Positions 14,353 through 28,422 of a stretch of DNA of 64,000 bases are shown one piece after another. Below the pieces are notes generated by a model. It ran no database searches. It had not been told where the DNA came from and worked only from the letters and a program-made list of their open reading frames with translations. Origin of the DNA: a gamma proteobacterium symbiont of Taylorina sp. (GTDB taxonomy: Bacteria > Pseudomonadota > Gammaproteobacteria > GRL18). The translations under genes were made by a program, and so were the position numbers. The stretch spans positions 1-64,000 of the forward strand of contig JAHXIV010000007.1 of the NCBI GenBank assembly GCA_025655455.1, written 5' to 3'. Position 1 is the stretch's first letter. Each line of letters begins with the position of its first letter.

Positions 14353-14372
14353 CAATATTTTGTCATTTTGGG
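14343..14372. terminator. Perfect 13-bp stem-loop over stop codon
   Basis: CCCAAAATGACAA and TTGTCATTTTGGG form a perfect 13-bp stem with a 4-base TATT loop. The structure spans the stop codon of the DUF255 gene. No run of T follows on the plus strand, so it is not a textbook intrinsic terminator. It may attenuate readthrough or protect the mRNA 3' end. Confidence 0.45.
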
Positions 14373-14409
14373 GATAATTTATGGCTTGATATTTGCATTA
14401 TTTTCTAGT

Positions 14410-15567
14410 ATGAAAAAAGTTAGTATGAATAAAACAATGCTCAATTATTTGTCAATAATCAGCTTTATTGTGCCTGCTGTTTCTATGTTGTATGCTCTTC
14501 CAGGTTTTTCTGCAGAGCGTGATTATGTTGTGCCTATGATAGACTCAAAATGGATCATGAACGGCAAGAAAAATTATGAGTGTATTTTGTCCCAGACAAT
14601 TCCATTTTATGGTGAGGGAAAATTTATTCATCGTTCAGGTAATGGCATTATTTTTAATTTGATAAGTGACAAATTGATGGTATCAGATGTGCGCGTTGTT
14701 CTTCAATCTGAACCGCCTGCATGGCGTCATGAAGAGGTTTTTGAAATTGGAGAATTTATTTTTGAACAGGGTACGGAGCCATTAGTTATCCAGCCGCCTT
14801 ATGCTTCCAGAATATTTCAGGAAGTTGAAAATGGTATGTCACCCCTGGTTATTTATCGTGACCTGGCAGATGGTCGTGATCTGATTTCTGTTTTACTTTC
14901 TCCTATTAATTTTCGCAGTGCACTGGAAGAATATCTGGAATGTGAAAAAACATTGCTGGATTTTGATTTGGATGAGATCAAAAATATAAAGCTCTATTTT
15001 TCTACTAATAAGTCAACACTGTCTGAGCGTTCTAAACGTGATTTAAAAAATATATTACGCTACCTGAAAATTGATTCCACTATTTTACAAATTAAAGTAG
15101 ATGCCCATGCGGATGCAAGGGGAAGACGTCGTTTTAATGATAAGCTGTCTGAAACACGTTCAGCAGCTGTTGTAAAATACCTTCTTTCAGTGGGAGCAAA
15201 ACAGGAAATGATCTATGCCGTCAGTCATGGTGAACGTGCTCCTACTTTTAATAATAAAACCTCAGCTGGCAGAGCACAGAACCGTCGTGCTGATATACAG
15301 CTTCTGACAACAGCGCCGCCGACTCCTGAAGAACAGGAAGCTCTGGAAAAAGCCAGAAAGGCAGAGCGTCGTCAAAAATTATTAGCTAAATCAATTTTTA
15401 ATGGTGTTCCTAAAAAGCCTCTCAGTAAAAAAACATCTAACACAGACGATATTCCTGATACTGCATCTAATGAGGAAGCAGGAATAGAGCCTGTTGATGA
15501 TGAACCCCCTGCTCCTAACTTTATCAATATGGATCATCTGGTGGATAAAAACAATAATCCTTTGTAA
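14410..15567 (+). CDS. MotY-like flagellar motor protein with OmpA peptidoglycan-binding domain
   Basis: 385 residues from the ATG at 14410. A signal peptide is evident (hydrophobic LNYLSIISFIVPAVSML, likely cleavage after FSA). The N-terminal half has DSKWIMNGKKNYECILSQTI, PFYGEGKFIHRSG and EPPAWRH, matching MotY, the T-ring protein that anchors Na+-type stators. The OmpA-like domain (about 205-310) has VDAHADARGRRRFND and LSETRSAAVVKYL, then AQNRRADIQL. Beyond it lies an extra charged, proline-rich tail of about 70 residues. Longer in-frame starts (TTG 14368 or 14386) are possible; I chose the ATG because it sits just before the signal peptide. It precedes a chemoreceptor, fitting a motility role. 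Confidence 0.85.
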   Translation: MKKVSMNKTMLNYLSIISFIVPAVSMLYALPGFSAERDYVVPMIDSKWIMNGKKNYECILSQTIPFYGEGKFIHRSGNGIIFNLISDKLMVSDVRVVLQSEPPAWRHEEVFEIGEFIFEQGTEPLVIQPPYASRIFQEVENGMSPLVIYRDLADGRDLISVLLSPINFRSALEEYLECEKTLLDFDLDEIKNIKLYFSTNKSTLSERSKRDLKNILRYLKIDSTILQIKVDAHADARGRRRFNDKLSETRSAAVVKYLLSVGAKQEMIYAVSHGERAPTFNNKTSAGRAQNRRADIQLLTTAPPTPEEQEALEKARKAERRQKLLAKSIFNGVPKKPLSKKTSNTDDIPDTASNEEAGIEPVDDEPPAPNFINMDHLVDKNNNPL

Positions 15568-15634: not shown

Positions 15635-15777
15635 GCAAAAAATAAGAATCTCAATTATTCTCTATACAATCATTATCATCAGTTTGGTTGATTTAAATGT
15701 TTTACTTAGAAAAATTAAATTAATTATTCTGTCTGCCGATATTTTTTTTGAGGCAGGTTTGCAGGGGGATAAATCTA

Positions 15778-18207
15778 ATGTTTAGTTCGATTCATAATCA
15801 GCTTTCAAAGTATAAATTGTGGCATCGCTTATTTGTGTTGAGCATGATTCCTTTATGCGGTTTAATTTTTTATGCTGTGGAATTAGTACTATCGGCAAAA
15901 GATTTAGCCAATGAGAAGCAGATTAATGTTGAATTCTCATCTCAGGCAATTAAGGAAGCCAACGCTCTGCTTAAAGAAAGAAGTGCTTTTTTAACACAGG
16001 TTGAACAAAGCGTTAAGGGAAAGAATAAATTTATAGCAGAAATTGAAATTAATTTAAATAACAAAAAGCAATACTTAAATGTAGTTGATGGCATGATTCA
16101 AGAGGTACAGGCGGCTGATCAGGAATTGCTTTTATTACAGTCATTATTTAACAGCTATGTTCTGCTTAATGAATATTTACAAGCTGTACAAATTGAACGG
16201 GATCTGTCTTTAGCTTATATTGGCAGTGAAGGACGGTCTTTTACCGCACAACTAAAAAGCACATTTTTAAATACTGATAAGTTGATATCTAATCTTGATA
16301 AGATTGATCTGGTGCTTTTAGAGAAAGTAAGTTCTGACTTACCAAAAAAAATAACAAAAATAAAAAAATTATCCAAGCGCTTAAAAGGGAAACGAAAAAA
16401 AATCCAGAGTTTAAGAGTTGTTCCCCTCCCCATTATGGATTACTATCTGCTTATAACAGAAAATGCATTGTCTGTTATTGAAGCCCTGTCTATTCACGTC
16501 AGTCATAATAAATTGCAAAATATTCTGGCCAGTTATAGCAATATATTACGTATGATTGATCTAACCTCTCAGGAAAGAGCCTATGTGACTTATTCTCTTG
16601 GACAACCTGATTTCCCTCAGGCAGTGTTTCAGAGACTGATTCAGGTTCTGGCTCGAATGGAGGTTTATCAAAAATCATTTGAAACCTGGAGTTCTACAGA
16701 ACTCACGACTTTATTTTTTGAAAAAATGAAGAATAAAATTGGTAAACAAGCCAGGTCTCAGCGTTATTCCATCCTAAATTATGATCCGGAAATGGGGTTT
16801 GATACACAGCCGACAGACTATTTGACAACATGGAGTGCGCTAATTAAAGAAATGATGATTATTCAAAAGCAGGTTTTCAGTTCTCTGGAAAACTGGACAG
16901 AAGCTTTGATTGAAGAAAATGCATTATTAGTTAAAGAGTATAATGGAAAAAAACAGGCGGCAATAGAAGGCAAGACAGAATTAGCTGCTAAAATAAACGC
17001 TAATAAACAGGAAATCGCATCAATTTTGCTACGCAAGAAAAAAAGTAATGATTCCATCGCATTAACAAAAGAAAAAATCAAACAGCTTACCGAGCATAAA
17101 TTAACGACTGAAAAAGCATTGCAGGAAGCCATTGAAAAGCAGCAAATAGTTATTATTTTTTCAACACTGGGTATTATATTGACAGCTTTGCTGAGCTATC
17201 TGGTTTTTACCAGTGTTTGTAAACCAATGAATCATTTATTAAGTGGTTTTAATCGACTGACTCAGGAAGATGCTGACTTAACTTATCGTATTCCCGTTAT
17301 TGGTAAAGATGAATTGGCCGAAGTTGCTCAGGGGTATAATTTCTTTGCTTCCAGGGTGGGAATGATGATAGGTCAGATACAGTCTGTTGTTGACTCTCTA
17401 AGTGATGCTATTGGAGAGTTAAATGCAGTTAATAATGAGAATACGGAAGGCAGCCATAAGCAGCAGCAAAATACTCTACATATTATTGAAGCGATTGAAG
17501 CGGTGAATTTGAATATGAATCGTGTGGCATCCAGTGCTTCAGAGGCGAGTCAATCTGCTGAAACTGCAAACTCACAAGCTGATCAGGGCAAGTCTATTGT
17601 AGATAATACGGTGACTTCAATTAAACAGCTGGCTAATGAAATTGATCAGGCTTCCAATGTGATTAATATTCTCAGCAGGGATAGTGAAGATATCAGCTCT
17701 ATTCTGGATGTTATTGGCGGTATTGCAGAACAAACAAACTTATTGGCACTCAATGCAGCTATTGAAGCTGCAAGAGCTGGTGAACAGGGACGTGGATTTG
17801 CGGTGGTTGCTGATGAAGTCCGGACTCTGGCGGCCAGAACTCAACAATCAACCAGTGAAATCAGAGTAATGATTGAAAAGCTGCAGCAAGGTTCACGTGA
17901 TGCCGTTGCAACTATGGCAAAAGGGACTGAACAGGTGAATAGTAGTGTTGATCAGGTGATGCAGGCAGATGAGTCTCTCTCTGAAATTAATGCCTCGGTA
18001 CGATTAATTCAGGATAAAAATAATGAGATTGATAGTGCATCACAAGAACAAATGCATAGTGTGAGACAGATCAACCAGAATGTTGAAGAGATCAAAGAGT
18101 TAAGCGCAGATACTCAGAATAGAACTACTCAATTACAATCAGTCAATACGACTTTATCCAGCCAGGCTGCAGAACTTAAACAGCTGGTTGGTCAGTTTCA
18201 AATTTAA
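15778..18207 (+). CDS. Methyl-accepting chemotaxis protein with NIT sensor domain
   Basis: 809 residues from the ATG at 15778, chosen over a TTG at 15748 because AGGGGGA lies just upstream of it. TM1 (about 18-40) and TM2 (about 455-480) flank a large periplasmic helical region. That region contains [13 protein letters not shown] and [13 protein letters not shown], the paired ER-containing motifs of the NIT (nitrate/nitrite-sensing) domain. HAMP follows (about 480-535), then the signaling domain with the conserved hairpin [20 protein letters not shown] and [17 protein letters not shown]-domain receptors are thought to sense nitrate or nitrite, but the ligand here is inferred from the family only. 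No C-terminal CheR-docking pentapeptide is present. It probably signals to a CheA/CheW complex encoded elsewhere. Confidence 0.92.
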
Positions 18208-19764: not shown

Positions 19765-21330
19765 TTACACTTTCTCTTCCCATTTTAGAAGTTTAACTAT
19801 CAGTTTTGTTCCCTCTTTTTTTGATGTGGTAAACTCAATGCTACCTTTTTGAGCTTCAGTCATTAATTTAGCAGAGTAGGTTCCAAGTCCTGTACCTTGT
19901 TTTTTACCCTTAGTAACATACTTCTCAAAAAAACAGTTTTGTATATCCTGAGGAATCATTGCATTGTTATGAATGCTAACTGAAACCTGATCTTTCCCAG
20001 TAATTTCTATTAGTATTTTCTCTCCATGTTCAGAGGCTTCAACTGCATTTTTAAGCAAATTAGAAAGCAACGAGTAACAAAGAAGTTCTTCTCCCCAAAC
20101 CATGACGTTGGTATCATCTGCTACATTGATCTGAATTTTATGATCGATACCTTCATTAGTACCCAAAATACTATAAGATAAATCATCACGAACTCTGATA
20201 ATTGTTTCTTTGATATCTACTATTTCAGGATCCAGCTGATAGTTATTTTTTTCCATTTTATAGATATTAAGCGATGCATTCACCATATTCAAAATGGTGA
20301 CTCCTGCGGTACCTACGTCTTTGTTTATTTTTCTATATTCTTTGCCAATATCAGAGTTTTCAGCAAGCAGTGCCGATTGATGAATAATGACACCCAATGG
20401 GTTTTTTATATCGTGCATTGATATTCGTTCAGTGTCTTCACGCAATCGTGCATTGTCCATCAGCATGTAAACCTGATTTTTTAAACTGTCTTTTGATTTT
20501 TTTAGATTAATATGGTTTTTGATTCTGGCCTTTAATAGTTCGGGTTTAACCGGTTTGGTAATATAATCTACTGCACCCAGTTTAAACCCCTCAACAGCAG
20601 TATCAGAATCACCTTTAGCGGTTAAAAATATGACTGGAATATCCATAGTCTGTGGATTACCTTTTAATAAACGGCAGACTTCCATACCATCCATTTCAGG
20701 CATCATAATATCCAGTAAAATCAGATCTGGAGTGGGATCAATGGCTGCAATTTCCAGAGCTTTTTTACCATTGGTTGCTATACGTATTTTATAGCTGCCC
20801 TTAAGTATACCGACAATCACATCAATATTTGATGGTAAATCATCCACAACTAAAATTTTTGCTTGTATTTCATCAACTTTTTTCTGATCAGAATCTGATT
20901 TTGTTGTAGATTTTGTTTGCTTTGATAAACCAGACTGAAGAAAAGGTAACTTACCGGCAAATAATAAGTCCAGTTTTTCCTGCAGTTTTTTTGGTGTAAA
21001 AGGTTTAATAATAAAATCATTTACACCGTTATCAATTGCCTGATTAACCTGATCTTCATTTGTTTCTGCAGTAATCATTAATACCGGAACATGTTTGGTT
21101 TTTTCTATCATGCGGATGTTCTTAAGCAATTCCAGACCATCCATTTTAGGCATATTCCAGTCTGTCAAAATCAAATCAACCGTCATATCCCGACAGATAG
21201 ACAGAGCTTCAACACCATTTCCAGCAAAAAATAATTTTTTAAAACCCATAGCCAGAAGATTTGATTTGATAAGGTCACGCATTGCCCTCAAATCATCAAC
21301 AATTAATATTCTTTTATTCTCTATTTTCAT
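19765..21330 (-). CDS. REC-REC-histidine kinase (HDxKNP type)
   Basis: 521 residues from the ATG at 21330. Receiver 1 (5-125: ILIVDDLRAMR, LTDWNMPKM) is CheY-like; receiver 2 (about 150-275: ILVVDDLPSN, LLDIMMPEM) is PleD/HD-GYP-like. A coiled segment leads to HDIKNPLG at about 303, carrying the probable phospho-His, and a HATPase (420-518, LLKNAVEAS and GTGLGTYSAKL). It has no membrane segment, so it is a cytosolic kinase controlled through its own receivers. It is closely similar in plan to the kinase at 23208-24326. A longer start at 21351 lies inside palindromic repeat B, whose end supplies AAGAG as ribosome-binding site for 21330. It is last in a three-gene operon behind REC-HD-GYP and a lone receiver. 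Confidence 0.9.
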   Translation of the reverse strand: MKIENKRILIVDDLRAMRDLIKSNLLAMGFKKLFFAGNGVEALSICRDMTVDLILTDWNMPKMDGLELLKNIRMIEKTKHVPVLMITAETNEDQVNQAIDNGVNDFIIKPFTPKKLQEKLDLLFAGKLPFLQSGLSKQTKSTTKSDSDQKKVDEIQAKILVVDDLPSNIDVIVGILKGSYKIRIATNGKKALEIAAIDPTPDLILLDIMMPEMDGMEVCRLLKGNPQTMDIPVIFLTAKGDSDTAVEGFKLGAVDYITKPVKPELLKARIKNHINLKKSKDSLKNQVYMLMDNARLREDTERISMHDIKNPLGVIIHQSALLAENSDIGKEYRKINKDVGTAGVTILNMVNASLNIYKMEKNNYQLDPEIVDIKETIIRVRDDLSYSILGTNEGIDHKIQINVADDTNVMVWGEELLCYSLLSNLLKNAVEASEHGEKILIEITGKDQVSVSIHNNAMIPQDIQNCFFEKYVTKGKKQGTGLGTYSAKLMTEAQKGSIEFTTSKKEGTKLIVKLLKWEEKV

Positions 21331-21335
21331 CTTGG

Positions 21336-21435
21336 TGCTCTTATCAAACATAAAAATGTGCTGCTGTCTTAATTTTCAATTTAAATATGTTTAAAAAGCA
21401 ACAGCGGCATATTTTTATTTGGCTGAGGTTTCTTA
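21336..21435 (-). repeat. Palindromic repeat family, copy B
   Basis: On the minus strand it reads TAAGAAACCTCAGCCAAATA at one end and TTTTTATGTTTGATAAGAGC at the other, nearly the same ends as copy A at 2525-2632. The interior pairs with itself (GCCGCTGTTGCTT with AAGACAGCAGC) around an AT-rich tip. It fills the gap between the HD-GYP gene stop and the downstream kinase start. The terminal AAGAG sits 7 bases before that ATG. Confidence 0.75.
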
Positions 21436-22464
21436 AATATGCTCAGCGTACTTTGCTTTTAATTCCAGTATATCAGGGATAACATTCATAAATACTTTTA
21501 CCAGTTCAGGGTCAAAATGTTCACCAGCTTCTTGCTTAATAAGATCCAATGCATCATCTACCGTCCAGGCTTTTTTATAAGGCCGCTCTGTTGTCAGCGC
21601 ATCAAATACATCTGCAATGGCGATAATCCTGCCTGATATAGGAATGTATTCTCCCTTTAAACCATTAGGATAGCCCTTTCCATTATATTTTTCATGGTGG
21701 CTTATGGCAATTTCACTGGCCAGGTTTAATAAAATAGAATCATCATTGTTACCAATAATTTCAGCGCCAATTTCTGGATGTTTTCTCATCACAGCCCATT
21801 CTTCATCATCCAGTTTTCCAGGTTTTAACAAGATATTATCAGCAATACCAATTTTTCCTATATCATGCATTGGAGATGCACTCAGTATTAATTCTGCTTC
21901 GGATTCACTCATTCCTGAAGCAAGAGCCAATACCTGAGAATAGTGGCTCATGCGCATCACATGCATGCCCGTTTCATTATCCTTATACTCAGCTGCTCGC
22001 CCAAGTCTTTGAATAATCTGCAAACGGGTATTTTCGATTACCCGGGTTTTTTCTTTAACCTGTTCATCTAATAAACGTTTTTGATCATAGAGGTTTAAAT
22101 GTGTATTGACCCGTCTTGATACCAGAGCAGGACTGACGGGCTTGGTGATATAATCCACTGCACCCAGATCAAAGCCGCGACTTTCATCTTTAACCTCTCC
22201 TTTGGCAGTAACAAAAATAACGGGGATGTCTGCCGTACTATAATTCGCTTTTAGTTGTTTACACACCTCATAGCCATCTATGCCCGGCATCATAATATCC
22301 AGCAGAATCAAATCAGGTTTTGATTTTCCTTGTGCAATTTTTAATGCTTTTTCACCATCGGTTGCTATTTTTAATTTATAGTCGGTTTTTAAAATACCTC
22401 GTAAAACATCAATATTATCGGGTATATCATCAACAATAAGTATGCTTGCTTTTTTGTTATCCAT
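21433..22464 (-). CDS. Response regulator with HD-GYP phosphodiesterase domain
   Basis: 343 residues from the ATG at 22464, chosen because GGAAAG lies 7 bases upstream; a TTG at 22509 would extend it by 15 residues. The receiver (about 7-125: ILIVDDIPDN, LLDIMMPGIDG) is followed by a short coil and an HD-GYP domain with HDIGKIGIAD and HHEKYNGKGYP intact. HD-GYP proteins with these metal ligands hydrolyse cyclic di-GMP, linking phosphorylation to second-messenger removal. It lies 53 bp downstream of a single-receiver gene and upstream of a REC-REC kinase in one operon. It is soluble. Confidence 0.95.
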   Translation of the reverse strand: MDNKKASILIVDDIPDNIDVLRGILKTDYKLKIATDGEKALKIAQGKSKPDLILLDIMMPGIDGYEVCKQLKANYSTADIPVIFVTAKGEVKDESRGFDLGAVDYITKPVSPALVSRRVNTHLNLYDQKRLLDEQVKEKTRVIENTRLQIIQRLGRAAEYKDNETGMHVMRMSHYSQVLALASGMSESEAELILSASPMHDIGKIGIADNILLKPGKLDDEEWAVMRKHPEIGAEIIGNNDDSILLNLASEIAISHHEKYNGKGYPNGLKGEYIPISGRIIAIADVFDALTTERPYKKAWTVDDALDLIKQEAGEHFDPELVKVFMNVIPDILELKAKYAEHI

Positions 22465-22517
22465 TAGCTTTCCAGATTCAGATAATAGTTTTATTGTACT
22501 ATAATGCAAGAGTGTAT

Positions 22518-22937
22518 TTAAACTAGCAACTCATCTAAGGCTGCAAATAATTTATTTGCATCAACAGGTTTTGTTAAATAGGCTTTTGCTCCTAATTCAA
22601 GACCTTTTTGTTGTTCCTCAGCAGAAATGTTAGCAGTAATAAATATGATTGGAATATCTGTTGTTTGTGGATCATCTTTCAAATACTTACAAACTTCATA
22701 TCCATCCATATCAGGCATCATTACATCGAGAAGGACTAAATCAGGATGAGGTTCTTTTTTAGCAATTTTTAAGGCCTTTTCACCATTACTGGCTACCTTA
22801 AGCTTATATTGACCATTGCCTTTATCTTTTAACAGTCCACTTAATAAACGCAGATTATCAGGGACGTCATCAACAATTAAAATAAGTTTTTTCTTTGATA
22901 AGCCTGGTTTTGATCCTGTATCCTTTTCTGTAACCAT
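22518..22937 (-). CDS. Single-domain response regulator
   Basis: 139 residues: a short Lys-rich leader (SKPGLSKKKL), then one receiver with LILIVDDVPDN, phospho-acceptor Asp in LLDVMMPDM, ITAN and KPVDANK. There is no output domain, so it acts by protein contact or as a phosphate shuttle. GGGAG upstream fits a ribosome-binding site. It is first in the operon with REC-HD-GYP and REC-REC kinase. Its leader resembles a fossil leader peptide found at 42848-42901. Confidence 0.9.
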   Translation of the reverse strand: MVTEKDTGSKPGLSKKKLILIVDDVPDNLRLLSGLLKDKGNGQYKLKVASNGEKALKIAKKEPHPDLVLLDVMMPDMDGYEVCKYLKDDPQTTDIPIIFITANISAEEQQKGLELGAKAYLTKPVDANKLFAALDELLV

Positions 22938-23125: not shown

Positions 23126-23130
23126 AGTTT

Positions 23131-23181
23131 AATAATGAAATAATAATGAAATAATAATGAAATAATAATGAAATAATAATG
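23131..23181 (+). repeat. 11-bp tandem repeat array in operon leader
   Basis: AATAATGAAAT occurs four times head to tail plus a partial fifth copy (23131-23181). It lies right after the predicted -10 box and ends 26 bp before the ATG at 23208. Perfect short repeats like these can change copy number by slippage. Confidence 0.9.
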
Positions 23182-23207
23182 GAAGAAATATTGGGTAATC
23201 GTTAAAT

Positions 23208-24326
23208 ATGAACACAGATAAACCTGGTAATAATAAAAAAACTATTCTGATCGTTGATGATAAACCAGAGAACATATCAATCATTGTGGGATTGTTGCCG
23301 AAATATAATAAAATTGTGGTTTTAAATGGTAAGAATGCACTGAAAAAAGCTCATGGAGAAAAAAAACCTGACCTTATTTTACTAGATATTATGATGCCGG
23401 AAATGGATGGCTATGAGGTCTGTAAACAATTAAAAGCTTCTCCACAAACCAAAAATATTCCTATCATTTTTCTTACCGCCAGTGTTCAAGAAGATGCCGA
23501 GACTAAAGGTTTTCAATTAGGTGCAGTTGACTATATAACCAAACCAATAAAACCTACCGTACTACAGGCTCGCATTAGAACACATCTTGAATTGCAGCAG
23601 ACAAAAGAAACCCTTGAAAAAAAGAATGAAGCTTTGTTAGAAGCTGCACAACTTAGAGAGGATGTAGAAAGGATAACTCGACATGACTTAAAGTTACCCT
23701 TAAGCAGTATTTTAGCAATTCCTGACTTACTTATGATGGATGACAATATAACCGCATCTCAAACAGAGTCATTAAAAGTCCTTAGAGATTCAGGTTATCA
23801 GATGTTGCACATGATTAATCTTTCTCTGGATTTGTTCAAAATGGAAAGAGGAATCTATCAGGTTCACCTTGAAAATGTTGATCTGATTTTAAGCGTAAAA
23901 AAGATTCTTAAGGAATTTAATGGGCTTATAGTTACTAAGGATCTATCCGTAGCTTTATTGCTGAATAGTACACCAGTTGTTCCTGATAGTTGCTTTGTCG
24001 TACAGGGAGAAACACTGCTTTATTATTCAATGTTAGCAAATTTAATAAAAAACGCCATTGAAGCTTCACCGGAAAAGAAAATCATCACCTTTAATTTTAA
24101 TAACAATAAATTTAGGAAATTGAGTATACACAATGAAGGTGCGGTACCGGTGGAAATCAGAACCTCTTTCTTTGATAAATATTCAACTTATGGTAAAGTT
24201 GACGGTAGTGGACTGGGTAGTTATTCTGCTAAATTGATTGCCAAAACATTGCAGGGGGACATTATTCTCGATACTTCAGTTGAGGATAACACGACATTAA
24301 TCCTGCAGATTCCACACCATGATTAG
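23208..24326 (+). CDS. REC-histidine kinase (HDxKxP type)
   Basis: 372 residues. An N-terminal receiver (10-130: ILIVDDKPEN, LLDIMMPEMDG, KPIKP) joins by a coiled segment to RHDLKLPLSS at about residue 160, the probable phospho-His site, and a HATPase domain (about 265-370) with LIKNAIEAS and GSGLGSYSAKL. There is no membrane segment. Plan and motifs match the kinase at 19765-21330, which carries one extra receiver, so they look like paralogues across a divergent promoter region. It is first in a five-gene operon leading to a CheY-like protein and MotA/MotB; the CheY-like protein is the obvious phosphate acceptor (inference). Confidence 0.9.
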   Translation: MNTDKPGNNKKTILIVDDKPENISIIVGLLPKYNKIVVLNGKNALKKAHGEKKPDLILLDIMMPEMDGYEVCKQLKASPQTKNIPIIFLTASVQEDAETKGFQLGAVDYITKPIKPTVLQARIRTHLELQQTKETLEKKNEALLEAAQLREDVERITRHDLKLPLSSILAIPDLLMMDDNITASQTESLKVLRDSGYQMLHMINLSLDLFKMERGIYQVHLENVDLILSVKKILKEFNGLIVTKDLSVALLLNSTPVVPDSCFVVQGETLLYYSMLANLIKNAIEASPEKKIITFNFNNNKFRKLSIHNEGAVPVEIRTSFFDKYSTYGKVDGSGLGSYSAKLIAKTLQGDIILDTSVEDNTTLILQIPHHD

Positions 24327-24353
24327 TCATGTGATTTTAAATTAGTTAAACAG

Positions 24354-24761
24354 ATGATGACAAAAATACTTGATAAAAAGACTGTCCTGGTAGCTGATGA
24401 TATGCCGCATATCCAGTACATAATGAAAGACATATTAATGCGGATGGGATGTCATAAGGTATTACTGGCATCAGATGGCAAACAGGCTATCAGCCTGGTT
24501 GAAAGTCAAACTATTCCTATTGACCTTATTATCAGTGACTGGAAAATGCCGGGTGTGTCTGGACTTGACTTTTTTAAATGGACAAAATCATATGATAAAA
24601 CAAAGAATGTTCCTTTTTTGATGATTACCTCAGAACGTAGTAAAAAGCAAGTGGTTGATGCTGTTAAAAGTGGAGTCAGACACTATGTTGGCAAACCATT
24701 TAAACCACAGGAAATCATGGACAAAATAACACAACTTATTGAAAATCAGGGAAATTTATAG
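24354..24761 (+). CDS. CheY-like single-domain response regulator
   Basis: 135 residues of pure receiver: VLVADDMPHIQ acidic pocket, phospho-acceptor Asp in IISDWKMPGVSG, conserved Thr in MITSE and Lys in KPFKP. DWKMPG is typical of CheY-like proteins. It could bind a flagellar switch or the stator complex encoded next to it. Its stop TAG shares its last base with the GTG start of motA, so translation is coupled. A second ATG at 24357 is equally possible. Confidence 0.9.
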   Translation: MMTKILDKKTVLVADDMPHIQYIMKDILMRMGCHKVLLASDGKQAISLVESQTIPIDLIISDWKMPGVSGLDFFKWTKSYDKTKNVPFLMITSERSKKQVVDAVKSGVRHYVGKPFKPQEIMDKITQLIENQGNL

Positions 24762-25543
24762 TGTCCACAATAGTCGGGATTATTTTAGGTCTGATACTGA
24801 TATCCAGCAGCATTCTTAGTGGCGGCGGTTATCAAATATTTTTGAATCTGGATGCATTAATGATTGTTGTTGGCGGGACATTAGCAGCAACATTGATCAG
24901 TTACCCATTCTATCGGGTAATTAATTTTTTTATTCTTTTCCTTAAACTATTTAAAGAACAAAGCAATAAGCAATTAGAGCTGGTTCTTATACATCTTGCA
25001 GAGCTGGGACAAAAGGCTTTTCAGGACTCTGTTTTTTGTCTTGAAGAAGAAATTAAACAAGAGAAAAACTACTACATTCGTGTAGGTATGAAATTATTGG
25101 TTAATGACACACCCACTCAGCACATCATACATCGTTATCAATCAGAAGCAGATGGGATCAGAGGTCGTCACAAAGAAGGCATTCAGTTATTTAGTTTTAT
25201 GGGCAGAATCGCTCCTTCATTTGGCCTGGTTGGAACTCTAATTGGATTGATTAATATGCTGCGAGGTATTGGTGCTACGGTATCACCAGAAACCTTAGGA
25301 CCCAGTATGGCTGTCGCATTGGTGACAACACTTTATGGTGCTTTTTTAGCTTTTTTTATTTTTATTCCTGCATCTGAAAAACTAAAAACCTATTCTGAGC
25401 AGGAATTGATCATCCTTAATGTGGTTAAGGATGCTATGATCATGATAAAAAATGGTGAATCAGGAAGGGATATCGGTGAGATGTTACAAGCTTATTTACC
25501 TGAAAAAAATCGTCGTGTTGTCATGCAGAAAATATTAAAATAA
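24761..25543 (+). CDS. motA: MotA/PomA-type stator channel subunit
   Basis: 260 residues with four membrane helices (about 2-22, 30-52, 148-170 and 180-204). The cytoplasmic loop carries the charged motor-contact region, and the C-terminal pair has APSFGLVGTLIGLI and GPSMAVALVTTLYGAF, as in MotA/PomA proteins. With MotB it forms an ion channel in the inner membrane that drives flagellar rotation. The GTG start overlaps the stop of the upstream CheY-like gene. Together with the MotY-like protein at 14410 a sodium-driven motor is plausible, but ion choice cannot be proven from this. An ExbB/TolQ role is less likely given the MotB partner. Confidence 0.92.
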   Translation: MSTIVGIILGLILISSSILSGGGYQIFLNLDALMIVVGGTLAATLISYPFYRVINFFILFLKLFKEQSNKQLELVLIHLAELGQKAFQDSVFCLEEEIKQEKNYYIRVGMKLLVNDTPTQHIIHRYQSEADGIRGRHKEGIQLFSFMGRIAPSFGLVGTLIGLINMLRGIGATVSPETLGPSMAVALVTTLYGAFLAFFIFIPASEKLKTYSEQELIILNVVKDAMIMIKNGESGRDIGEMLQAYLPEKNRRVVMQKILK

Positions 25544-25573
25544 ATTTTTTAATTTTATATAAATAACGATATT

Positions 25574-26701
25574 ATGGAACACTCAAACAACAAAATCAGA
25601 CTTACATGTTCTTCTTGTCATGCAAAATATGTTATTGATATAAGCAAAGCATCTAAACAACAATTAGAAAGCTCATTTGTAAAGTGCAAAAAATGTGGGC
25701 AAAAAATACCTGTCCCGAAACTATCACTGGCATCAACAATAGATAAAGAGACGATTACAACAAACAATCTTGAATCCAGATCGAAGTTGCCGTTATCTTC
25801 TGAATCACCAACAAAAATAGAGCAAGAACCAGAAAAAATAAATGTCTGGCCACAATCTTCACTGTCGCTTAATAAACAGGATGATGAATCAGAACAGGAC
25901 AACTGGATGGCTCTATACGGTGACATGATGTCTATTCTACTTATTTTTTTCATCCTTATGTTTGCTATTTCTACCATTGACAAGCAAAAATTCCAATCAG
26001 TTATAGAAGGCATCAGTCAATCACTGGGTGGTTCTATCCAGTATCAAACATTACCACAAGCCTCTGATGAGCAAAAAGCAATCATGCTGCCACCTCCAAC
26101 GCCACTTGAGGAGAAAAAGATAAATATACAGCAGGTTCAGGAGCTATTAAATAAACTTCAAACAAAGGTAAAGAACGAATCAGAATCTCTTTCAGATTTA
26201 CAGCTGGTTTTAAATGAGTTGATCAATGAAAATCAGTTGAAAAATAACCTCACTGTAAAAAATGAACAAAAAGGTCTGGTGCTAATTGTTCAGGACATCA
26301 GTATGTTTAAATCAGGTAGTGCAGAGATCACTTCTGCTATTAAGCCAATACTTTTAGATATTGGTCAGATTCTAAGTAAACTGAATATTGAGATTGATGT
26401 AGAAGGACATACCGATGATATTCCTATCAGCACAAAAGAATTTGCTTCAAACTGGGAACTTTCTAGCAAACGAGCAACCAATGTAGTGCATTTTTTTATT
26501 GAAAAATGTGCTATGGAACCCTCTCTGGTTTCTGCCTCAGGATATGCTGAAAACAGACCACGCTATAGCTATCTTGATGAACAGGCCAGTAAGAATCGGC
26601 GTATAGAAATTGTTGTAAAAAAGAAATATGACTCTGAACTGTTGCATGATTTTATGGATCTTAATCCTCAAAGTGCCACTCCACAATTTATAGAATATTA
26701 G
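25574..26701 (+). CDS. motB: MotB-type stator subunit with N-terminal zinc ribbon
   Basis: 375 residues. Residues 10-45 hold two CxxC pairs (C12-C15 and C38-C41) with the layout of an MJ0042-type zinc ribbon, followed by an acidic, Ser-rich linker to about residue 108. The MotB plug and single membrane helix follow: WMALYGDMMSILLIFFILMF, with the ion-binding aspartate at D117. A coiled periplasmic linker leads to the OmpA-like peptidoglycan-binding domain (about 235-350: VEGHTDDIPI, WELSSKRATNVVHF, NRRIEIVV). Ordinary MotB has only about 25 residues before its helix, so the cytoplasmic zinc ribbon is an unusual addition. It could dock the adjacent CheY-like or TPR protein (inference). Confidence 0.92.
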   Translation: MEHSNNKIRLTCSSCHAKYVIDISKASKQQLESSFVKCKKCGQKIPVPKLSLASTIDKETITTNNLESRSKLPLSSESPTKIEQEPEKINVWPQSSLSLNKQDDESEQDNWMALYGDMMSILLIFFILMFAISTIDKQKFQSVIEGISQSLGGSIQYQTLPQASDEQKAIMLPPPTPLEEKKINIQQVQELLNKLQTKVKNESESLSDLQLVLNELINENQLKNNLTVKNEQKGLVLIVQDISMFKSGSAEITSAIKPILLDIGQILSKLNIEIDVEGHTDDIPISTKEFASNWELSSKRATNVVHFFIEKCAMEPSLVSASGYAENRPRYSYLDEQASKNRRIEIVVKKKYDSELLHDFMDLNPQSATPQFIEY

Positions 26702-26718
26702 CATCAAGGTTCAATATT

Positions 26719-28422
26719 ATGGATGTAAGCCAATCTAATATATTATTTTATAAAGATTCCAAATCTGTCGATCATCTTATGCAATTTGTCCATGATTGTG
26801 GTTTTAAAAATATTTATTCAACTGATAATCATCAACAAGCTACTCAACTATTATTAACCAGTCAGATTGATCTGGTTATTATTACCAAGCTTGATGATCT
26901 TAAAAAGACCATAGCAACCTTTATAAACTATGGGGAAAGCAATGAGACAACAGATGGATTACCACTGGTTGTTATCACTCAAAATGAATCGATAACATCA
27001 ATACAGAAAATAATGGCTCAGGGTGTTAATTCTGTGCTGATAGAACCGGTCAATCATCAAACTATACAAAACACTCTCAGCTTCCTGTTATTTTCTATAC
27101 AGGATGGCATTATTGGTATGGCACAATTGCAAGATGCACAGCAATTAATTGAGGAAAATAAGCCGGATGAAGCCGTGATTATATTACAGGATCTTGTAGG
27201 CTTTCCTGATTTTGGGATTGAAGTACATGTAAGTCTCTGTAAAGCTGCTATAAAAAAGAAGGATAATGAAAGTTCTGCTTCAACACTTAAGGAACTTATA
27301 AAAATAGCTAAAGCGACTGAGGATCAAACCGAAAGACATATTAGATTATCCACAATTGCACACTTGCATGGCAAGCTTCTTTCACAACGTGGCTCAGTTG
27401 GCAAAGCTCTGGAACAATATAAAATCGCTTATGATCTGCATCCCTATAACGTAGATAACTTAGTCAGTCTGATTAGCTTATTACCAAAAGAGAATAAAGT
27501 AAAAGAATTAGAAAATATTTTAAAGAAAACTGTTTTTGATTTTTTGTCCTTTAGCAAACCTCTTGATATTATTGCATATCAACTTTCAGAAACCTGTGAG
27601 CAACTGCAAAAATTAGGATTAGAAGCAGAAGTACTGTCTCTATTCAATATATTGTTAAAAATAGATCATAAAAATATTGAAGTTCATCAGAAAATTCTTT
27701 TTTATTGTGTAAAGCAAGGAAAATACAGCCTTATTTTAGATTATGCCAAATATATTATTACAAAAGTAAAGGATCCTGAACTATTTTATAATTTAGCAAG
27801 AAATTGTCTGGACATACACTCAGGAAAAATAGAATTCATCAATAAAGAAGATGATAAAGCAGAGAGTCACTATGAAAAAAAGGATGACCTGGAAAATAAT
27901 AAACAACTGCTTTATCTTGCAAAAGAGGCGATACAACAAGTGGTCTTCTGGGAACCTGATGCACCTAAGCATAGAGTTTTACTTGCTATAGCTGAGTTTC
28001 GTCTTGGTAATGAAAAGACAACAGAGACAATTTTACTGCAGGTAAAAGAAGAATACCAAAATGATTTAGAGGAATATGCCCAGGTAATAAGGGAGTTGCT
28101 TGACGAAAAAATGTTTCCAACAGCCTTTGACTGGTTAGAAAGTGCTGAAGATTACTTCCCTGATAGTGAAATAATTCTGAAATTAAAATCTGAATATTTC
28201 TGTTGTGTAGGTGAACCATTAAAAGCAGTTAGAGCGATTAAAATATTTTTGCTTAAAGATTCAAAAAATGTAGAACTCATCGTAATGTTGAGTGAAATAT
28301 ACATTGAAGCACAAGATAAAGACAATGCACTGATAGCTATTGAAAAAGCAAAAAAAATTGCTCCTGACAACCAGCGGGTTATAAAGCAGATGAAGGCTGT
28401 CATAAAAGCCTCATCACCTTAA
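26719..28422 (+). CDS. Degenerate receiver with TPR repeats
   Basis: 567 residues. The first 130 fold like a receiver (ILFYKDSKSVDHLM, VVITQNE, and EPVNHQT in place of KP). The acidic pocket and phospho-acceptor are lost: where LLDxxMP is expected it reads VIITKLDD, so it should not be phosphorylated. The rest is helical with TPR-like repeats (for example AVIILQDLVG near 150, ALEQYKIAYDLHP near 235, ALIAIEKAKKIAPDN near the end). It is probably a scaffold for protein contacts. It is last in the kinase-CheY-MotA-MotB operon, 17 bp after motB, suggesting a role in assembling or regulating that stator. No membrane segment. Confidence 0.82.
   Translation: MDVSQSNILFYKDSKSVDHLMQFVHDCGFKNIYSTDNHQQATQLLLTSQIDLVIITKLDDLKKTIATFINYGESNETTDGLPLVVITQNESITSIQKIMAQGVNSVLIEPVNHQTIQNTLSFLLFSIQDGIIGMAQLQDAQQLIEENKPDEAVIILQDLVGFPDFGIEVHVSLCKAAIKKKDNESSASTLKELIKIAKATEDQTERHIRLSTIAHLHGKLLSQRGSVGKALEQYKIAYDLHPYNVDNLVSLISLLPKENKVKELENILKKTVFDFLSFSKPLDIIAYQLSETCEQLQKLGLEAEVLSLFNILLKIDHKNIEVHQKILFYCVKQGKYSLILDYAKYIITKVKDPELFYNLARNCLDIHSGKIEFINKEDDKAESHYEKKDDLENNKQLLYLAKEAIQQVVFWEPDAPKHRVLLAIAEFRLGNEKTTETILLQVKEEYQNDLEEYAQVIRELLDEKMFPTAFDWLESAEDYFPDSEIILKLKSEYFCCVGEPLKAVRAIKIFLLKDSKNVELIVMLSEIYIEAQDKDNALIAIEKAKKIAPDNQRVIKQMKAVIKASSP

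Follow-up and report, generated by a model that had tools for sequence, protein, structure and literature searches.

What recruits a stator to its rotor once the arginine that usually serves this purpose is gone from MotA? Stator recruitment responds to load and, via YcgR/FlgZ-type proteins, to c-di-GMP, and we know of no description of a stator subunit that has a docking domain built into it and is encoded beside a dedicated two-component relay. A locus in the genome of a gammaproteobacterial symbiont of Taylorina sp. provides a clean test of this question. Within the window analysed here (a stretch of 64,000 nucleotides, contig JAHXIV010000007.1), a MotB with a predicted N-terminal zinc ribbon is encoded next to a partner MotA that keeps all of the channel residues yet has Phe at the position of the rotor-loop Arg, the state of MotA being what the present analysis adds.

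The cluster spans positions 23208–28422 of the plus strand and comprises, in order, genes for a soluble REC-histidine kinase (REC-HK, 372 aa, 23208–24326), a CheY-like single receiver (135 aa, 24354–24761), a MotA/PomA-type stator A subunit (260 aa, 24761–25543), a MotB stator B subunit (375 aa, 25574–26701) and a pseudo-receiver/TPR protein (567 aa, 26719–28422). These are the neighbours named in the first-pass annotation, and the span that it had assigned to the stator (24761–26701) corresponds to MotA plus MotB. The genes are separated by 27, −1, 30 and 17 bases, with the GTG start codon of MotA in a one-base overlap with the CheY stop. The MotB start (ATG 25574) was placed by ORF logic only, no Shine-Dalgarno-like motif being seen before it; a mis-called start was rejected, since a stop lies seven codons upstream of the ATG and no start further along would fit ahead of the ribbon. 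A short tandem repeat of ATAATGAAATA lies upstream of the REC-HK start (23130–23185), where the promoter of the cluster is likely to be, and could be phase-variable.

At 4.5 Mb in 104 contigs, the genome is rated complete; it has a single FliG gene and three MotBs, namely one at a chemotaxis/flagellar locus, one of PomB type, and the ribbon-bearing MotB of the window. The GC content of the cluster (33–37%) is similar to that of the adjoining kinase genes, and the neighbourhood of radA, the next gene, is not conserved among relatives, so the boundaries of a horizontally transferred insert could not be drawn.

The domain structure of MotB was defined by Pfam, PDB matches, alignments and a model of the ribbon. 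It consists of the zinc ribbon (residues 8–48, 25595–25717 on the plus strand), a linker (residues 49–105), a transmembrane and plug segment carrying the channel residue Asp117 (MotB_plug, 61 bits), and an OmpA/peptidoglycan-binding domain (residues 244–339; OmpA, 51 bits). The ion-carrying Asp is conserved in 72 of 72 MotBs compared, among which it mostly follows after 20–30 residues, giving an N-terminal extension of about 90 residues here, in line with the approximately 85 first proposed. Phe125 and Phe126, which follow the transmembrane Asp, are kept, and in the OmpA domain Gly278, Thr280, Asp281, Asn293, Arg300 and Asn341–Arg343 are conserved, with Ala at the R338 position.

Within the extension, two CxxC pairs are found at Cys12/Cys15 and Cys38/Cys41, as had been claimed, in the pattern C12xxC15 ... 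C38xxC41-G. The Pfam model Zn_ribbon_4 matched the N-terminus with 24.4 bits (E = 2.8e-5), below its curated cutoff of 30.3 bits. Among all PDB sequences, the best match was the zinc ribbon of AgmX/GltJ from Myxococcus (PDB ID: 7zok, E = 0.0012), and the zinc finger of ZitP (PDB ID: 2nb9) matched with an E of 0.077. AlphaFold2 modelled the 55-residue ribbon stretch alone with a pLDDT of 77 and the order β-β-α-β-β; a Foldseek search with this model returned nothing significant (best E = 0.6, with ZitP at rank three, E = 0.74). Taken together, sequence and model point to a candidate MJ0042-type zinc ribbon (PF13717/PF13719), which would bind zinc and whose cytoplasmic placement follows from the topology of MotB.

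The full-length MotB was used to search 57 related genomes, 369 genomes of the class, and 237 genomes of the phylum of Myxococcales plus four others, and the search with its N-terminal 151 residues covered two sets from the phylum, of 398 and 385 genomes; the search sets overlap. Across these samples of three clades, no MotB outside the window aligned over the ribbon, bearing in mind that ribbon-MotBs with an unlike linker could escape these queries. None of the 72 aligned MotBs had matching cysteines at the C12 and C38 positions, and two CxxC pairs spaced as in a ribbon occurred in no MotB N-terminus that we inspected. Zinc-ribbon MotBs were thus not found to be common, none occurring in the sampled genomes; the first-pass annotation had named their being common without the kinase, CheY and TPR genes as evidence against its proposal. 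As no orthologue of the ribbon-MotB was found in these genomes, selection on the ribbon cysteines or on Phe87 of MotA cannot be shown. In a full-text literature search, no publication came up that connects a MotB stator with a zinc domain at its N-terminus, and zinc is not mentioned in a survey from 2025 on the diversity of MotAB across 205 genomes (PMC12505986).

Short cysteine-rich tails are present directly before the membrane helix in four PomB-type MotBs of the class (for example MSQECECECEECEE, CECEECE and CKKCP), possibly as a metal or lipid site. In seven family relatives the third motAB is a different one, with a small conserved gene downstream whose product starts FWKK...RRxGVRI/DVRIKP and appears PilZ-like by eye; at the level of the MotB search, this small gene is absent from the present genome.

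MotA was identified by Pfam (MotA_ExbB), by an alignment of 71 MotAs and by alignment to PomA/MotA structures. Its residues Pro152, Gly155, Gly158, Thr190, Tyr192, Gly193, Ala197 and Pro203 match channel columns that are invariant among 70 MotAs. In the rotor loop, Phe87 (with Gln88 next to it) is found at the position of E. coli Arg90 and Vibrio Arg88, where 66 of the 70 other MotAs have Arg, both other MotAs of this genome included, and four lack it. Ser90 replaces a Gly and Asn115 an Asp, each present in 69 of 70 MotAs. Glu95, at the position of E. coli Glu98 and Vibrio Glu96, is kept, with Leu94–Glu95 aligned to the LE of PomA/MotA, as is the acid at the E150/D128 position. The single FliG retains the acidic-partner motif RAAEMLRDDL, within RAAEMLRDDLEASGPVK, and the partners that it offers can be met by the other two MotAs of the genome.

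In Salmonella, this MotA Arg is critical for stator assembly and Glu98 for torque (PMC6079164). The MotA of the window has thus lost the assembly-linked residue and retained the torque-linked one, a correlation within one sequence and no proof. The loss of the rotor-loop Arg makes another recruitment contact plausible. It could also be drift, because the branch of MotA, which stands isolated in the PomA part of the tree, is very long (2.29 substitutions per site); the third stator of the family's other members falls in the same half of the tree, with no supported grouping of the two.

The signalling proteins of the cluster have intact receiver and kinase motifs, with one exception. REC-HK matches Response_reg and HATPase_c, with HisKA just under the cutoff, and has the receiver Asp60, the phospho-acceptor His159, an N-box around Asn282 and a G-box at 333. 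The CheY-like protein (Response_reg, 86.6 bits) has CheY proteins as its best solved matches and intact motifs (Asp15/Asp16, Asp62, Thr92 and Lys114, with Tyr111 at the position of E. coli Tyr106). Adjoining the cluster is a divergent minus-strand operon (19765–22937), encoding a CheY-REC-histidine kinase fusion (19765–21351), a REC-HD-GYP protein (21433–22509; Response_reg and HD_5), which is a candidate c-di-GMP phosphodiesterase, and a lone single receiver (22518–22937; Response_reg). The fusion is a paralogue of both cluster proteins, with 43.6% identity to REC-HK and 36.6% to CheY, and by a Rosetta-stone argument makes a link between the kinase and CheY likely; REC-HK and CheY are thus likely to work together. 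With an HD-GYP protein alongside, c-di-GMP may be a further input.

The exception is the last protein of the cluster, comprising a pseudo-receiver (about residues 1–125) and a TPR superhelix (about residues 127–565, from Pfam TPR matches). Both the phospho-Asp and the Lys of a receiver are missing (the sequences there being DLVIIT and IEP), so the label pseudo-receiver was apt. The receiver part aligns to the receiver of its neighbour with a BLAST E of 1e-4 and only weakly to RssB and GlrR; for this part we relied on such sequence evidence, as the predicted structure, which has helical repeats, is uninformative over the receiver (pLDDT below 50). Relatives of the TPR protein were found neither in 299 genomes of the phylum at 1e-20 nor in the 57 related genomes at 1e-6, and none came from viral contigs or plasmids.

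Tentatively, we favour an accessory stator that is engaged by its MotB ribbon docking to another product of the cluster, instead of by the usual MotA–FliG contact. It would be the third stator of a flagellated gammaproteobacterium-like host, flagellar in type and strongly diverged (MotA5MotB2 by homology), in which the cytoplasmic ribbon would be the docking module and the flexible linker of about 55 residues its tether. The partner would most likely be the pseudo-receiver/TPR protein, and the local REC-kinase/CheY relay would decide the timing of docking, such that engagement of the rotor would await recruitment and would not rest on the contact between the MotA Arg and the FliG Asp. The first-pass annotation had proposed a stator set by a phosphorelay, perhaps through ribbon docking. 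The ribbon (at the level of sequence), its membership of a family of docking domains (ZitP, GltJ/AgmX), the co-encoded signalling genes and the loss of the MotA Arg all stand; what we infer is that zinc is bound, that docking occurs and with which partner, that the phosphorelay exerts control, and that the rotor belongs to the flagellum. The stricter proposal, that recruitment has moved from the MotA–FliG charge contact to the MotB ribbon and is read there by a dedicated kinase, CheY and pseudo-receiver/TPR relay, as direct phosphorelay control, we regard as rather doubtful.

The locus was compared with its closest known systems. With PomAB/MotAB stators (TGI4-type, PomA side), the pair shares the four-transmembrane MotA with its cytoplasmic loop, the channel prolines, the MotB Asp and the OmpA domain, and differs in the extension of about 90 residues with its ribbon, the lost rotor-loop Arg, the long isolated branch, and being encoded with a kinase, CheY and a TPR protein. 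ZitP from Caulobacter likewise has at its N-terminus a zinc ribbon belonging to this superfamily, followed by a linker and one transmembrane helix in what is predicted to be the same topology, whereas it carries a DUF3426 domain and not MotB. The ZitP ribbon has the order β-β-α-β-β and alone binds PopZ directly, for which Trp35 is needed, and AgmX, with Ile at this position, does not bind PopZ (PMC5182065). In the MotB ribbon, the equivalent residue is Ile45 (segment CKKCGQKIPVP, phmmer-type alignment), as in AgmX, so a PopZ-type partner would not be expected.

The closest solved ribbon, that of GltJ/AgmX (7zok), is likewise on a trans-envelope motility protein, in Myxococcus gliding, whereas GltJ is not a stator subunit and MglA/MglB are absent from this cluster. 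The GltJ ribbon reportedly acts as a switch, in work ascribed to Attia et al. from 2024. GltJ is listed as an effector contacted by MglA in gliding (PMC12288465). That the solved ribbons of this family serve for docking on membrane proteins of motility or polarity supports the docking reading. CheY-like or c-di-GMP-binding proteins such as CleA/CleD and YcgR/FlgZ also tune the motor (PMC5677366); those of CleA/CleD type act on FliM, and YcgR/FlgZ at the rotor–stator interface, whereas the candidate docking site here is a domain of MotB. The CheY of the cluster has no arginine-rich tail of the kind considered in the CleA/CleD comparison.

The alternative that survives best, though on balance we think it somewhat unlikely, is an ordinary accessory flagellar stator, with the ribbon as an ornament that stabilises or localises it and with a separate chemotaxis-like pathway, formed by the kinase, CheY and TPR protein, acting on FliM or transcription. 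CheY keeps its phospho-site as well as a Tyr where FliM would be bound, genomes of this family normally have several stators, and in Vibrio PomA the single or double loss of Arg88 and Lys89 barely affects rotation (R88A/K89A still rotates), so Phe87 need not prevent ordinary assembly. However, such a stator would explain less well the tight packing of the genes, with CheY and MotA overlapping, a ribbon from a known family of docking modules, and a rotor loop diverged exactly at its conserved positions (Phe87, Ser90 and Asn115).

That same divergence, with the channel intact, could instead mark a stator re-used outside the flagellum, as an ion-driven rotary unit driving or sensing another part of the envelope (as AglRQS does in gliding), in which the ribbon and TPR protein replace the FliG interface. 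The closest ribbon is that of a gliding machinery, and there is no second FliG in the genome. We consider this unlikely, as the full-length MotA can be aligned with flagellar MotA/PomA from one end to the other, cytoplasmic interface included, with Glu95 and the acid at the E150/D128 position kept; the plug/OmpA layout of MotB is typical of flagellar stators (PMC12505986), and no other gliding genes came to notice in the window.

Four cysteines in ribbon spacing, on the cytoplasmic side by MotB topology, could also form a zinc or redox switch, where zinc loss or a disulfide alters stator assembly with no protein partner; this is improbable, as the solved members of the ribbon family act in protein binding and the cluster has no redox- or metal-related genes. 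A Zorya-type anti-phage ZorAB was rejected as extremely unlikely: ZorB models match MotB (E = 2.7e-21), as expected for any MotB, whereas none of the ZorA models matches MotA, whose closest relatives are flagellar PomA/MotA, and no ZorC/D/E-type match was found among the cluster genes tested.

Elsewhere in the window, a MotY homologue (MotY_N and OmpA; 14368–15567, plus strand), which is a T-ring part, is followed by a chemoreceptor-like protein (15748–18207), and this pair fits a sodium-type polar motor. On the other side of the cluster, the minus strand (28477–58255) encodes a long series of hybrid sensor kinases and proteins with periplasmic-binding domains, all very large, with sizes of 2259, 1112, 1421, 1394, 991, 589 and 1835 aa.
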